Positions 8,482-33,299 of a stretch of 38,651 nucleotides of DNA are shown here, piece by piece (position 1 is the stretch's first letter; each line of letters begins with the position of its first letter). The translations under genes were made by a program, and so were the position numbers. The notes beneath the pieces were generated by a model, which was not told the DNA's origin, ran no database searches, and saw nothing but the letters and a program-made list of their open reading frames with translations. The stretch lies in the NCBI GenBank assembly GCA_938075585.1, contig CALJHG010000040.1:1-38651 (forward strand), in the 5' to 3' direction. This DNA is from an uncultured Gammaproteobacteria bacterium. Its GTDB lineage: Bacteria > Pseudomonadota > Gammaproteobacteria > Ga0077536.

Positions 8482-9141
8482 TTAGATTTTAAAACTCAAA
8501 GAACTTTCTAGCCCCTCTTCAAGGAATTTAACGTGTTCTTTAAAATTAAGCATGTCGATAAGACATTCGCCTTCTTGTATCTTGTCAATTATAGCTTCCT
8601 CAGCTTTTTGAATTTGAAGCGCTGAGGGTACCAAATCTATGAGTTGTGCGATGGATGCTACTATAATCCCATCCTCATCCCCAAATACAACTTCCTCGGG
8701 AGCTACAGCTATCCCACCACATTGAATTTCAGTCTGGGTCTCCATCATTTTTTGTGTAGTCCCGGAGCACGGACAATAAGATTTAGCAAAAACTGGAATC
8801 TCCAGCTTTCGCAACATTTCTACATCACGGACCGGTCCGTCTACTATTATGCCCGACAATCCTCTACGCTGCGCTTCAGTGCTAAATAGCTCCCCGACGA
8901 GGGCTCTTGTACTTTCTTGCGAGTCAACTACAAGAACGTCTCCGGCTTTAGACTGATTTAGTGCATCTATAACAGTTAAGAAATCATTATGGCAGCTCAC
9001 TGTACGCGCAGTACCTAGGATTTTTTTTCCATTATTAACCGGTCTTATAGTCGAAGACATTACTCTAATAGTTTTATCAGCATCAGCTATTGACGCTACC
9101 GACAAAGAAGATAATACATCTAGTAATTCAATCTTATTCAT
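8482..9141 (-). CDS. RraA-like / HMG aldolase family protein
   Basis: A 219-residue protein of the RraA-like superfamily, which includes 4-hydroxy-4-methyl-2-oxoglutarate (HMG) aldolases and the RNase E inhibitor RraA. The metal/substrate segment is present: GELFSTEAQRRGLSGIIVDGPVRDV has Gly83-Glu84, Asp101, Arg105 and Asp106, matching the Arg-Asp pair that binds substrate and Mg2+ in HMG aldolase. DEDGIIV near residue 175 is the second family block. It is longer than classical RraA (161), so it belongs to the catabolic aldolase branch rather than the RNase E regulator. It starts 2 bases after the HpcH/HpaI aldolase gene, so the two are coupled. Substrate unknown. Confidence 0.85.
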   Translation of the reverse strand: MNKIELLDVLSSLSVASIADADKTIRVMSSTIRPVNNGKKILGTARTVSCHNDFLTVIDALNQSKAGDVLVVDSQESTRALVGELFSTEAQRRGLSGIIVDGPVRDVEMLRKLEIPVFAKSYCPCSGTTQKMMETQTEIQCGGIAVAPEEVVFGDEDGIIVASIAQLIDLVPSALQIQKAEEAIIDKIQEGECLIDMLNFKEHVKFLEEGLESSLSFKI

Positions 9142-9143
9142 GG

Positions 9144-9896
9144 CTACTCTCCTTCTCGCAACTTGGTTAATGTATCCTGAGCTCCGCCCGTCATGAATGA
9201 AATATCCAAACCGCTACAAAGTAAAGTGAACCCCTCACCAACTTTCGCTGACACATCAGCAGCATCAACACCAAAAAATCCAAGCGGCATTTTTTTAGCC
9301 ACACATACGTCTCGTACATGATCGATCGCTGAAACTACCTCTTTATCGTCAAGTAATCCCGTCTTATTTAGACTCGCAGAAAGATCATAGGGACCTACAA
9401 AAACTCCATCTATGCCCTCTACAGAACAAATCATCTCGATATTATTTACGGCGTCGATATGCTCTGCCTGAATTACGACCGCAAGTTCTTGGTTCGCCTT
9501 CTCTAAGTACTCATGAAATCTCAGCCCATAAGTGTTTGCTCGACTTAAACCAATCCCCCGACTTCCGTTAGGGGGGTATTTGACGCAATCCACTATATAC
9601 TGAGCATCCTCAGCGGTATTTACAGAAGGTACGATTATTCCCGCTGCACCGGCATCTAATGCTTGTTGGATCTGTACTTTTTCTTTCGACGCAATTCTTA
9701 CTAGGCATGGAGTACTGCCAGCAGTCTGGATAATATCACGCACCGCTATGGCAGAGAGCGGAGAATGCTCAGCATCTACAAAAAGCCAGTCAAAGCCAAT
9801 TTGCGCAAGGGCCTCCACCACCTCAGAAGAAGCCAAAGTGACCATTGTCCCACAAAGAATATCACCACTATCCAAAAGTTCTCGAAAATTAATCAT
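9144..9896 (-). CDS. HpcH/HpaI-family class II aldolase
   Basis: A 250-residue TIM-barrel, metal-dependent aldolase releasing pyruvate (or a related 2-oxo acid) from 4-hydroxy-2-oxo acids. The HpaI active-site set is intact: His44 in VDAEHSP, Arg67 in LVRIAS, metal ligands Glu145 in IQAEH and Asp171 in GPYDLSASL. The usual family block after the first metal ligand is changed here (AEHIDAVNN instead of the more common ETxEAVEN), so substrate preference may differ. It is immediately followed by the RraA-like aldolase gene. A plausible role is cleavage of hydroxy-oxo acids from sugar-acid or aromatic breakdown. Exact substrate not assignable. Confidence 0.88.
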   Translation of the reverse strand: MINFRELLDSGDILCGTMVTLASSEVVEALAQIGFDWLFVDAEHSPLSAIAVRDIIQTAGSTPCLVRIASKEKVQIQQALDAGAAGIIVPSVNTAEDAQYIVDCVKYPPNGSRGIGLSRANTYGLRFHEYLEKANQELAVVIQAEHIDAVNNIEMICSVEGIDGVFVGPYDLSASLNKTGLLDDKEVVSAIDHVRDVCVAKKMPLGFFGVDAADVSAKVGEGFTLLCSGLDISFMTGGAQDTLTKLREGE

Positions 9897-28664: not shown

Positions 28665-31214
28665 TTATTCCGCTATTTCATCTTCGGCTATTTCTGGGAT
28701 TACCTCTAAGCCAACTAGAGCCTCGCTCTCCCCTAATGCAATCAATCTGAGCCCCTGAGTATTGCGGCCGATAATCGATATTCCCGAAACGGACGTCCTA
28801 ACCAAAACTCCCTGCCCGGTTATCAGCATGATATCCTCCCCATCGGTTGCAGCAGAAGCCCCTACGACTTCACCGTTTCTTTCGTTGGCCTGAATCGCTA
28901 TCACCCCCTGGCCCCCTCTTCCTTTTACAGGAAAATCACTAAAGTCAGTACGTTTACCGAAACCATTAGCCGTAGCCAATATCACCGTACCCTCACCCAG
29001 AATTGGGATAAGCGCAATTACTTCGTGGCGCTCTTTCAACCGCATCCCTCGAACGCCTCTGGCTGTCCTGCCCATCGATCTCAGTGCACTCTCTTTAAAT
29101 CTAATCGCCTTTCCGCCTGAGCTGACTAGCATCACGTCACTATCGCCTCTGGTAAGCACCGCTCCTACAAGCACATCACCCTCTGTTAGGCCCGCCGCAA
29201 TGATGCCAGAAGGCCGCGGCCGAGAAAAATTCTCTAACGGTGTTTTCTTCACGATACCAGAGGCAGTTGCCATAACAACAAAAGAATCAGCATCAAATTC
29301 TTTTATGGGAAGAATCGCTGTTACCCGTTCTGAATCAGATAACGGCAATAAATTCACTAGAGGTCGACCGCGCGCCGTCCTACTAGCTCTTGGTACCTGA
29401 TAAACTTTGAGCCAATAAACTTTTCCAAAATTAGTGAAGCACAGCAAAAGATCATGACTATTTGCCACAAACACCTTGTCCACAAAATCTTCATCACGAG
29501 TTGTAGTAGCCGTTTTCCCTCTGCCACCGCGTCTCTGCGATCGATAGACATCCAAAGCTTGAGACTTCGCATAACCAGCATGAGACAAAGTAACTACAAC
29601 TTCTTCTTGGGGAATCAAATCCTCTAACGAAAGATTTTCCTCAGAGTCTATAATCTCCGTCCTACGGTCATCACCGTATTGCTCAACAACCGTTATGAGC
29701 TCTTCGCGAATGACTTGCATCAACCTCTCGCTTCTTGAAAGAATGTCGAGTAGATCGGCTATCGTCAAAAGTACGTCTCCGTATTCGGAGACTATCTTAT
29801 CTTGCTCAAGCGCCGTCAAACGCTGCAACCTCATTTCTAAAATCTCTTTAGCTTGCTTTTCCGATAAAAAATATTGATCCCCTTGCATACCTGAATCAGT
29901 CAGACTGTCGTAAGCTTCTGAAGTTTCAATATTAGCGTTCTTCAACATCTGTTCGACCATACCAGTAGACCAACCCTGACCCAACAGTTTTTGTCTCGCT
30001 TCATTAGGCGTTGGAGATTCTTTAATCAATTTAATAATAGGATCTATATTGGCCAGCGCAACCGCTAGACCTTCCAGCAGATGAGCTCGAGCGCGGGCTT
30101 TTTTCAGTTGAAAAATCGTCCGTCTAGTCACAACATCTCTTCGATGCTTAATAAAACAATCCAGAAGCTCGCGCAAATTAAGAGTTTGAGGTTGTCCGTC
30201 TACAAGTGCAACCGCATTGACTCCAAAAACTGTCTGCATCTGAGTCTGTTTATATAAATTATTCAGCAACACTTCGGCACTCTCGCCCTTTTTTAGCTCG
30301 ATAACGATTCGCAAGCCGTCTTTATCGCTCTCATCTCTCAAGCCATCTGAACGTATACCATCAATTTTCTTGTCCTTAACAAGCTCTGCAATTTTTTCAA
30401 TTAAACGTGCTTTGTTAACTTGGTAAGGAAGTTCAGAGACAATGATTGCCGCACTTTCTCCATCGGCGCGTTCTATTACGGCTCTCGCCCGAAGCGACAA
30501 ACGACCTCTTCCCGTGCGATATGCGTCCCTTATCCCAGCAGACCCATTAATAATTCCAGCGGTCGGAAAATCAGGACCAGGAATATGCGCCAGAAGCGCA
30601 TCGTCATCTAGAGCGGGATTATCTACCAGTGCTACACACGCATTGATTACCTCTGTTAGATTATGCGGTGGAATGTTAGTTGCCATACCCACAGCAATTC
30701 CGCTCGAGCCATTAACGAGCAAGTTCGGAATTCTCGATGGCAACACGGTCGGCTCGTTTTCCTTTCCATCGTAATTTGGGGCAAAATCTACAGTCTCCAT
30801 ATCGATATCAGCTAACAGATCGCTCGCGATACGTCCTAATCTACACTCCGTATATCTCATCGCAGCGGGGGAATCCCCGTCAACAGAGCCAAAATTTCCT
30901 TGCCCATCTATCAACATATACCGCAACGAAAAATCTTGAGCCATTCTCACCAGAGTGTCATAGATGGCATTATCTCCGTGCGGATGGTACTTCCCCATAA
31001 CATCGCCAACAACACGCGCGCACTTAACGTAAGGCCTGTTCCATAGGCTGTTGGATTCTTGCATAGCGTACAACACGCGCCGATGGACTGGCTTTAAGCC
31101 ATCCCTAGCATCCGGGAGAGCTCGGCCTACGATTACACTCATCGCATAATCCATATAAGACTGTTTCATCTCGTCTTCGATAACGCGAATTTTGTGCCGT
31201 TCTAATTGGGCCAT
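28665..31214 (-). CDS. gyrA: DNA gyrase subunit A
   Basis: An 849-residue gyrase A, shorter than the 875 of E. coli. The catalytic tyrosine is Tyr121 in AAMRYTE. The quinolone-resistance region reads [10 protein letters not shown], with asparagine at the E. coli Ser83 position (Asn82 here) and the Asp87 equivalent kept (Asp86). The C-terminal pinwheel carries the GyrA box as QRRGGRGK near residue 561. The acidic C-terminal tail ([12 protein letters not shown]-like) is short. No strong Shine-Dalgarno site precedes the ATG. The 198-base upstream region is shared with the divergent amidohydrolase and has a repeated 10-mer. Confidence 0.97.
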
Positions 31215-31277
31215 CGTATTAAAAACAACTCTTTGATTAATATAGACAATTTAACACTAGATATCCTTGAAAATCAT

Positions 31278-31304
31278 AACACACCTTGCCCCTAAACACA
31301 CCTT
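31278..31304. repeat. Tandem-spaced direct repeat in gyrA upstream region
   Basis: AACACACCTT occurs exactly twice, at 31278-31287 and 31295-31304, with a 17-base period. It lies 64-90 bases ahead of the gyrA start and about 110 bases before the divergent gene. A binding site or chance repeat; no known operator was recognised. Confidence 0.5.
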
Positions 31305-31412
31305 AATTACGAGTTTCCAAAGAGACCAAATATAATTATGTTTTTAAACTTTCAAGACACTAAAGTACCGATTGTGATAACTTTGTTTTTCCAATAGATT
31401 TATTAAAAAATT

Positions 31413-32681
31413 ATGCTACAGGTAATACACGCTGGCTGGATAATTCCAATCCGTCCTAAAAAAACAATCCTTACAAACTATAGTTTAATTATTCAAGATT
31501 CTCGTATAGTTGCGTTAATACCAACAACCGAGTGGATCGAGCCGAGTGAAAAATATGAGTGTATTGACTGCAAAAACGATGTATTACTCCCTGGGCTAGT
31601 CAATACTCAAGCCGGAGCCTCACTTTCACTTTTAAGAGGAATTGACCATACCGATAATAGATACTCTTGGCTAAAAAAGGGCTTTTTACCCAAAGATTTT
31701 GAAGGACAGACTGACCAATTTATCAAAGACAGCGTTCTCATCGCCGGCGCTGAAATGCTGTTAAGTGGTACGACCTGCTTCAGTGAGTTGTGTGTTTCAG
31801 GCGAATATGTGGCCGCATCTACTATTTCACTCGGTATGAGGAGCGTACCGGGAATTTTAATAAGTAATGAGTCTAACATTTGGTCAACCAATCTTGATGA
31901 CTCCCTAGCAAAAGCACAAAGCCTATATGACAAATACCGCTCTCATCCGCTTATAAATTGGACCTTTGCTACCCAAATATCGGATATCACTCAGAGGGAC
32001 ACCCTGAGCAGGCTAGGAACGATTGGAGACGAATTAGATTTATCTTTACGAGTAAACATTAGTGCTAATTTGAGCCAAGCATCAAACTTAATGGAACTCG
32101 AACCAGTCAACCTGATCGGAAGGAAGCTAATAGTAAGTCACGTCCCTCCATTGCACGAATCAGATATCCAACTAATTAAAAAATGTGGAATAAGTATATG
32201 CCATACACCCAGTAACTCGATTAACACAAGCAATCAAGAATGTGAAATCAGTATGCTGAATAATAGCGGATGCGACTTCGGGCTAGGTACTGATAGTTCC
32301 TTAAACAACTCGATGTTTGATTTGTTTAAGGAAATGAGAGTGGCATCACTCCAACTATTCCCTAAAGATAAAGAGGACATACTCAACGCTTTCGATATCA
32401 TAGAATTAGCAACTCTAGGTGGCGCTTCGGTATTGGGAATGGAAGATGATATAGGCACCCTTGAATCAGGTAAAAGCGCGGACATCGTTTCTATTAATCT
32501 AAAGGAAGGACTTAGTGGCCCACTCTACAATATAGAACAACTCATCGTAAACCGCGGAGATTCGTCTCAGGTAAGGCAAGTATGGGTGCGCGGTAAGCGA
32601 GTTGTAAAAGATGGCGCCCTGACTACAATCGATTCAAAAAACCTAAGTAACAGATCTCAAGCATGGAATCTGTCCCAGTAA
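31413..32681 (+). CDS. TRZ/ATZ (MtaD-like) amidohydrolase with lost metal site, likely pseudoenzyme
   Basis: A 422-residue amidohydrolase-superfamily protein, related to MtaD (5-methylthioadenosine/S-adenosylhomocysteine deaminase). Scaffold motifs are clear: LLPGLVNT at 58-65, EMLLSGTTCFSEL, GLGTDSSLNNSMFDLFKEMR and a GTLESGKSADIV end. However, the HxH pair is Gln66-Ala-Gly68, the HxxE is Asn215-Ile-Ser-Ala218, and the PHAPYT histidine is Gln188. Only His243 and Asp294 of the usual metal ligands remain. The frame is intact and full length, so it looks kept by selection but unlikely to be a hydrolase. Its place beside gyrA is that of mtaD orthologues in Pseudomonas. There is no clear ribosome site. 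Not called pseudogene because no disruption is seen. Confidence 0.85.
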   Translation: MLQVIHAGWIIPIRPKKTILTNYSLIIQDSRIVALIPTTEWIEPSEKYECIDCKNDVLLPGLVNTQAGASLSLLRGIDHTDNRYSWLKKGFLPKDFEGQTDQFIKDSVLIAGAEMLLSGTTCFSELCVSGEYVAASTISLGMRSVPGILISNESNIWSTNLDDSLAKAQSLYDKYRSHPLINWTFATQISDITQRDTLSRLGTIGDELDLSLRVNISANLSQASNLMELEPVNLIGRKLIVSHVPPLHESDIQLIKKCGISICHTPSNSINTSNQECEISMLNNSGCDFGLGTDSSLNNSMFDLFKEMRVASLQLFPKDKEDILNAFDIIELATLGGASVLGMEDDIGTLESGKSADIVSINLKEGLSGPLYNIEQLIVNRGDSSQVRQVWVRGKRVVKDGALTTIDSKNLSNRSQAWNLSQ

Positions 32682-33299
32682 TCACTCGGCAACACCGTTA
32701 TACTGATCCCACTTATTAACTATTGTACAAAAGAGATCTGCAGTTTTTTGAGCATCATAAATAGCTGAGTGCGCTTCAGTTTGATCCCATTGATGACCAG
32801 CTGATACCACAGCTCGCGCTAATACGGTCTGCCCAAAAGCGACTCCCGAGAGCGCCGCCGTGTCAAAGGTACTGAAGTGATGGAAGGGAAATTTTTTGTA
32901 ACGTACCCGAGATGAAGCTGCTTTCACAAATGCCAAATCAAAAGTCGGATTATGTCCTACCAGAATCGCGCGAGTACAATTAAATTTCTCCAGCTCATCA
33001 TGCACTATTTGAAAAATATCAGTTATCGCCGCCTTTTCCTCTAACGCTCTCCGAAAAGGATGGAACGGATCTATATTGTTAAAATCCAACGCGCTTTGCT
33101 CTATATTAGAACCTAAAAAGGGTACAACATGATGAGCAACAGAATGGTTCGTGTGCCAGCCGGTTTCGGGCGAGTAGTCCAGAAAAATAGCAGCGATTTC
33201 TAGGAGAGCATCTGTCTCGGAGTTGAAGCCGGCTGTCTCTACATCTACAACTACTGGTAAAAAACCACGAAACCTTTTACAAACTAACTTACTAGCCAT
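32682..33299 (-). CDS. rnt: Ribonuclease T
   Basis: A 205-residue DEDDh 3'-5' exonuclease that trims tRNA CCA ends and other stable RNA 3' ends. Catalytic residues are Asp19 and Glu21 (VVDVETAGF), Asp121 in GHNPTFDLAF, His177 and Asp182 in AHSAIYDAQ, matching E. coli RNase T (D23, E25, D125, H181, D186). Its stop codon abuts the stop of the opposing amidohydrolase gene with zero bases between. It is divergent from the aldo/keto reductase gene across 80 bases. Confidence 0.96.
   Translation of the reverse strand: MASKLVCKRFRGFLPVVVDVETAGFNSETDALLEIAAIFLDYSPETGWHTNHSVAHHVVPFLGSNIEQSALDFNNIDPFHPFRRALEEKAAITDIFQIVHDELEKFNCTRAILVGHNPTFDLAFVKAASSRVRYKKFPFHHFSTFDTAALSGVAFGQTVLARAVVSAGHQWDQTEAHSAIYDAQKTADLFCTIVNKWDQYNGVAE

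Follow-up and report, generated by a model that had tools for sequence, protein, structure and literature searches.

A gyrA-adjacent MtaD homologue stripped of most of its metal ligands and probably retained as a non-catalytic protein in an uncultured gammaproteobacterial genus

The window, a 38,651-nucleotide stretch of DNA representing contig CALJHG010000040.1 of an uncultured marine gammaproteobacterium (GCA_938075585.1), harbors beside gyrA a full-length homologue of the MtaD deaminases whose metal site has largely been lost. We consider it reasonably probable that this protein is an in-place descendant of MtaD which, following a swap of the 5'-methylthioadenosine (MTA) salvage pathway, lost its metal site and was retained as a non-catalytic binding or scaffold protein. 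Sequence itself shows that ligands are gone, that the position is conserved, that gene content has changed from one route to the other, that the gene is constrained and that a second similar case exists. We infer that the loss was made possible by the swap, that catalysis has ceased and that the protein now serves a scaffold or binding role. The coordinates of the locus are given in Table 1.

Table 1. Features of the MtaD-homologue locus in the window
Feature	Position	Strand	Basis
MtaD homologue, ligand-stripped, 422 aa	31413..32681	+	ORF, ATG start, structure and profile alignment
QAG at codons 66-68, replacing metal-binding HxH	31608..31616	+	alignment
Gln at codon 188, replacing PHAPYT histidine	31974..31976	+	alignment
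NISA at codons 215-218, replacing HxxE (metal His and catalytic Glu)	32055..32066	+	alignment
Codon 243, His kept in the window protein; Gly in G001/G002	32139..32141	+	alignment
Codon 294, Asp kept	32292..32294	+	alignment
gyrA/MtaD-homologue divergent intergenic region; mtnA site in most family relatives	31215..31412	.	synteny
gyrA, divergent neighbour	28665..31214	-	synteny
rnt-like exonuclease (RNase_T), convergent with and directly abutting the MtaD homologue; same place in relatives	32682..33299	-	domain, synteny

The gene forms a single uninterrupted frame, in agreement with the first-pass annotation, which had read it as free of stops and shifts. Its product aligns over residues 3-419 with the 5-methylthioadenosine/SAH deaminase of PDB entry 4f0r (e-value: 1.2e-55), and 4dzh is also aligned. 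The best NCBIfam match is the PRK09045 TRZ/ATZ hydrolase, at 286 bits and thus below the curated cut-off of 540, while PF01979 is matched at 94.5 bits and profile-profile comparison against intact relatives returned 100% probability across 422 columns. AlphaFold2 with a three-sequence input gave a mean pLDDT of 28.6. In the alignment the HxH metal-ligand motif is replaced by Q66-A67-G68, the PHAPYT histidine by Gln188 and the HxxE motif by N215-I-S-A218, leaving only the barrel His243 and Asp294 of the seven active-site residues, the same substitutions and survivors that had been named in the first-pass annotation. His264, a conserved site of intact MtaDs, is also present. In the TM0936-type subfamily we take H66, H68, H215 and D294 to be the direct metal ligands and H188, E218 and H243 to be catalytic or substrate residues. 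By this assignment, three of the four metal ligands are missing from the aligned sequence, together with the glutamate of HxxE and the histidine of PHAPYT.

Family relatives with an intact MtaD share the gene order cmk-aroA-tyrA-pheA-gyrA-mtnA-mtaD-rnt-(AKR)-purB, and the same order from cmk to purB is found in the window's genus, minus mtnA between gyrA and the mtaD homologue. The stripped gene is located next to gyrA in the window's genome (G000) and in G001, G002 and G003, while the contig of G004 stops just past it and the gyrA locus itself was not found in the assembly of the sixth genome of the genus, G005. As this gene order is conserved around intact MtaDs, mutation in place is indicated, and the view that the ligand-stripped gene is a vertical, in-place descendant of the catalytic MTA deaminase, altered where it stood near gyrA as had been proposed from the window alone, is supported by synteny. 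A promoter scan of the gap between gyrA and the MtaD homologue found no sigma-70-like promoter, and there was no Rfam match at the locus. The best gyrA match of G004 (L060, G004:C120) is 53% identical to the window's gyrA and that of G003 95%; the L060 contig may represent contamination or another topoisomerase gene.

The gene was found in five of the six genomes sampled from the genus, and all five encode a stripped protein, so that the same loss extends to the close relatives. The proteins of G003 and G004 share 79-85% identity with the window protein, and those of the sister subclade G001 and G002 share 36%. At sites 66, 68, 188, 215, 218, 243 and 294 the five proteins read QGQNAHD (twice), QGQKNHD, NNKSPGD and NNQSPGD, with His264 as well as His243 lost from the sister subclade. 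Since two sister species are identical or nearly identical to the window protein at these sites and two more are stripped further, the stripped states are not the product of chance or assembly error. By comparison, HHHHEHD was read in 25/25 full-length aligned relatives from eight other genera of the family. A non-random set of 57 further MtaD-like loci was read in a class sample of 369 genomes, drawn from the 30 best- and 30 weak-scoring genomes; HHHHEHD is carried by all 51 that could be read at every one of the seven sites, four are partial without a contrary residue and two deviate (L147, NCNYENG; L148, NSNYENG), both belonging to family f142. Two viral-contig scans provided no further relatives for the alignment. 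A sequence search for a second, intact MtaD in the window's genome (92% complete) found none, and the other amidohydrolase matches there look, from their sequence starts, like dihydroorotase and N-acyl-D-amino-acid deacylase types.

Among 73 intact MtaDs 84 columns are conserved, and the five stripped proteins all retain 28 of these. The retained columns are mostly fold residues, including P60, G61, N64, E114, M115, G119, T121, G141, R143, G348, A356, D357, W391 and G394, while the conserved columns that were lost mostly comprise active-site and substrate-loop positions. This distribution bears on two alternative roles. The barrel could have been re-purposed to catalyze a different reaction, either metal-free or using new residues together with His243, His264 and Asp294, and in keeping with this the gene is constrained, 5/5 genus members retain Asp294 and the fold-level residues, and three retain His243 and His264. 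G001 and G002 lack both histidines, however, the substrate-loop residues are gone too and the substitutions at the ligand sites differ by subclade and family (QxG, NxN, NxC, YxQ) with no common new site apparent, making a new enzyme improbable. The additional loss of His243 and His264 in the sister subclade likewise argues against a metal site rebuilt from other residues. Alternatively, the protein might have kept its nucleoside pocket and act, not as a scaffold, but as a non-catalytic binder of MTA, SAH or adenosine, in the manner of a sensor or buffer. Its ancestor was an MTA/SAH deaminase and substrate binding need not disappear with metal loss alone, but most of the conserved loop and pocket-side positions (e.g. 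D80, L83, H188, Y191, N269 and K271) carry a substitution in every genus member, and we consider the retention of such a pocket unlikely.

A probable cause for the loss may be sought in the pathway to which MtaD belongs. In Pseudomonas aeruginosa the breakdown of MTA begins with its deamination, and the methylthioinosine so formed is phosphorolysed in a second step (PMC6302742). Other genera encode an MTIP-type phosphorylase (NF006599 equivalog, 331 bits against a cut-off of 223 in the one scanned), with the motif TGMPE...VNxAAG in four aligned phosphorylases, and carry mtnA beside mtaD, fitting the two-step route. The phosphorylase of the window's genus is, by contrast, an MTA phosphorylase (MTAP; NF006492, 497 bits against a cut-off of 437) with the motif TNMPE...TDYDCW. 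In the window's genome MTAP, a class II aldolase gene, apt and mtnA are arranged in tandem in this order (L074, G000:C36, 5058-8253), a set which amounts to direct disposal of MTA with the adenine recycled and which resembles a DHAP-shunt gene set. Genes resembling gmhA and gmhB are situated just upstream of this cluster on G000:C36. MTAP was found in G000, G002, G005 and G003, being cut by the contig end in the last, while G001 and G004, each 87% complete, yielded neither phosphorylase; the swap is therefore documented in only part of the genus members. As the genus carries an adenine-specific MTA phosphorylase, deamination would no longer be needed, and the pattern of gene content makes it likely that the pathway swap permitted the loss of the metal site. 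A possible intermediate, in the state expected before ligand loss, is represented by G023 of genus g5, where MTAP and MTIP are both present alongside an intact MtaD (L077, L079; G023:C39 and C54) and mtnA is paired with MTAP elsewhere in the genome, with no copy beside gyrA. Two further candidates were considered and rejected: SAH as a remaining need for the deaminase, given that ahcY is present in the genus and provides SAH with its own route, and replacement by an MtnN nucleosidase, for which only weak, sub-cut-off matches were obtained.

A second case is found in family f142, represented by 25 genomes of 0.7-1.2 Mb. A recognizable MtaD homologue is present in 13/25 of these, and all the homologues read are stripped, with varying residues at the seven sites (NCNYENG, QHDSENG, NQQNQNG, YDKSNEG and others). 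In 11/11 regions read, gyrA and the homologue diverge, and UbiG-size and MupP-size genes follow the latter; these proved to be ubiG and the gene of a MupP-like phosphatase in G176 and were recognized by similarity in three more regions. An ubiG gene also lies within the short flank at 31/55 other class-sample loci and is thus a common context, unlike the rnt context of the window. The two lineages probably lost their ligands independently, a view based not on the tree but on their differing neighbourhoods (mtaD-ubiG-mupP as opposed to rnt) and site residues; in the tree the five genus proteins form one clade (99/98), but with long branches and differing composition. The whole genome of G176 (1.09 Mb) encodes an MTAP with the TDYDC motif, adjoining apt, while neither MTIP nor mtnA was detected in it. 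The AhcY match in G176 (L152, L154, L155, L168-L221) reaches only 23%. In genus g223 of the family, the gene between gyrA and ubiG is an MtaD relic that has diverged strongly and shrunk to ~359 amino acids, though its frame is still open (L228, G401, 8493-9569). A role tied to ubiG alone was rejected, as it fits f142 but not the window's genus, where no ubiG was found either in the window or in the loci next to the homologues.

The persistence of these genes could reflect no more than slow decay of a dispensable gene following the pathway swap, with the frame open by luck. Between the subclades of the genus the stripped protein retains 34% identity while its neighbours retain 49-80%, the homologue has shrunk to ~359 amino acids in one f142 genus, and the four pairs of stripped genes give dN/dS values (0.197, 0.184, 0.162 and 0.151) that exceed those of intact MtaD (0.05-0.08, six pairs) by a factor of 2-3, all of which speaks for decay; the neighbours of the window locus range from 0.03 to 0.21. 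However, no stop or frameshift occurs in the five genus members, and neutral simulation from the same sequence at a distance of 0.37 predicts ~11 stops (minimum of 2 in 200 runs) where none is observed. Similar constraint is found in f142 (dN/dS 0.14-0.17, with synonymous sites partly saturated at pS 0.57-0.67), in whose reduced 1-Mb genomes useless genes should vanish. Given dN/dS values of 0.15-0.20 and the absence of stops, the conclusion that the stripped gene is not simply decaying but is kept by purifying selection is supported by these comparisons, and we assign decay a low probability. Catalytic residues are thus gone while the gene remains under purifying selection, the combination by which a pseudoenzyme is recognized. 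The first-pass annotation, which had suggested a non-catalytic or re-purposed protein, perhaps a pseudoenzyme, and had named decay as the observation that would count against it, is supported as regards a maintained pseudoenzyme by this selection, by the genus-wide loss and by the lack of a second intact copy among the sequences searched.

We suggest the following sequence of events for the retained MtaD descendant. The ancestral MtaD would have deaminated MTA to methylthioinosine, which methylthioinosine phosphorylase then cleaved, until this two-step route was replaced in the genus by direct MTA phosphorylase. With deaminase chemistry unneeded, the metal site would have been lost while purifying selection continued to preserve the folded protein, which today would act as a non-catalytic protein of amidohydrolase fold through protein-protein contacts or ligand binding. 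We regard binding or scaffolding without catalysis as its most probable role. Because there are two probably independent retentions, the evidence suggests that this non-catalytic job may predate the ligand loss, which is the weakest step of the proposal. It is conceivable, if on balance doubtful, that gammaproteobacterial MtaD in general has a hidden second, non-catalytic function, exposed independently at least twice when MTAP took over the chemistry, after which selection would have maintained that function alone and metal-free MtaD proteins would have remained next to gyrA.

Pseudoenzymes of the amidohydrolase type are already known as a kind, while no earlier report of one in the MtaD branch was found in the open full-text literature, which is weak evidence of novelty. 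The present case combines a traceable likely cause in the replacement of a pathway, an apparent intermediate in G023 and a second, probably independent repeat, and the retention of a protein after loss of its chemistry is therefore directly testable. Furthermore, automatic annotation would be mistaken in naming the stripped genes MTA/SAH deaminases, and models of methionine and purine salvage built on it would be led astray.

The closest known systems are the MTA/SAH deaminases of the MtaD type (TRZ/ATZ, COG0402; PRK09045, PDB 4f0r, 4dzh, 4dyk), with which the window protein shares homology over residues 3-419, the gyrA-adjacent position and the fold-level motifs. It differs from these in the loss of HxH, of the HxxE histidine and glutamate and of the PHAPYT histidine, and in scoring 286 against 540 bits for PRK09045. 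The collapsin response mediator proteins (CRMPs) are inactive dihydropyrimidinase relatives and amidohydrolase-superfamily pseudoenzymes that serve as binding proteins; they are animal neuronal proteins of the dihydropyrimidinase/hydantoinase branch, and their context is unrelated to that of the window protein. In Pseudomonas the inactive dihydroorotase pDHO is nevertheless needed for aspartate transcarbamoylase activity (PMC7053772). It belongs to another subfamily and its partner is known, whereas the window gene has no known partner and lies outside a client-enzyme operon in the genus. Like the window protein in the reading proposed here, however, pDHO (PyrX) is a metal-stripped amidohydrolase homologue that lacks catalytic activity, and it has been kept for a non-catalytic job.
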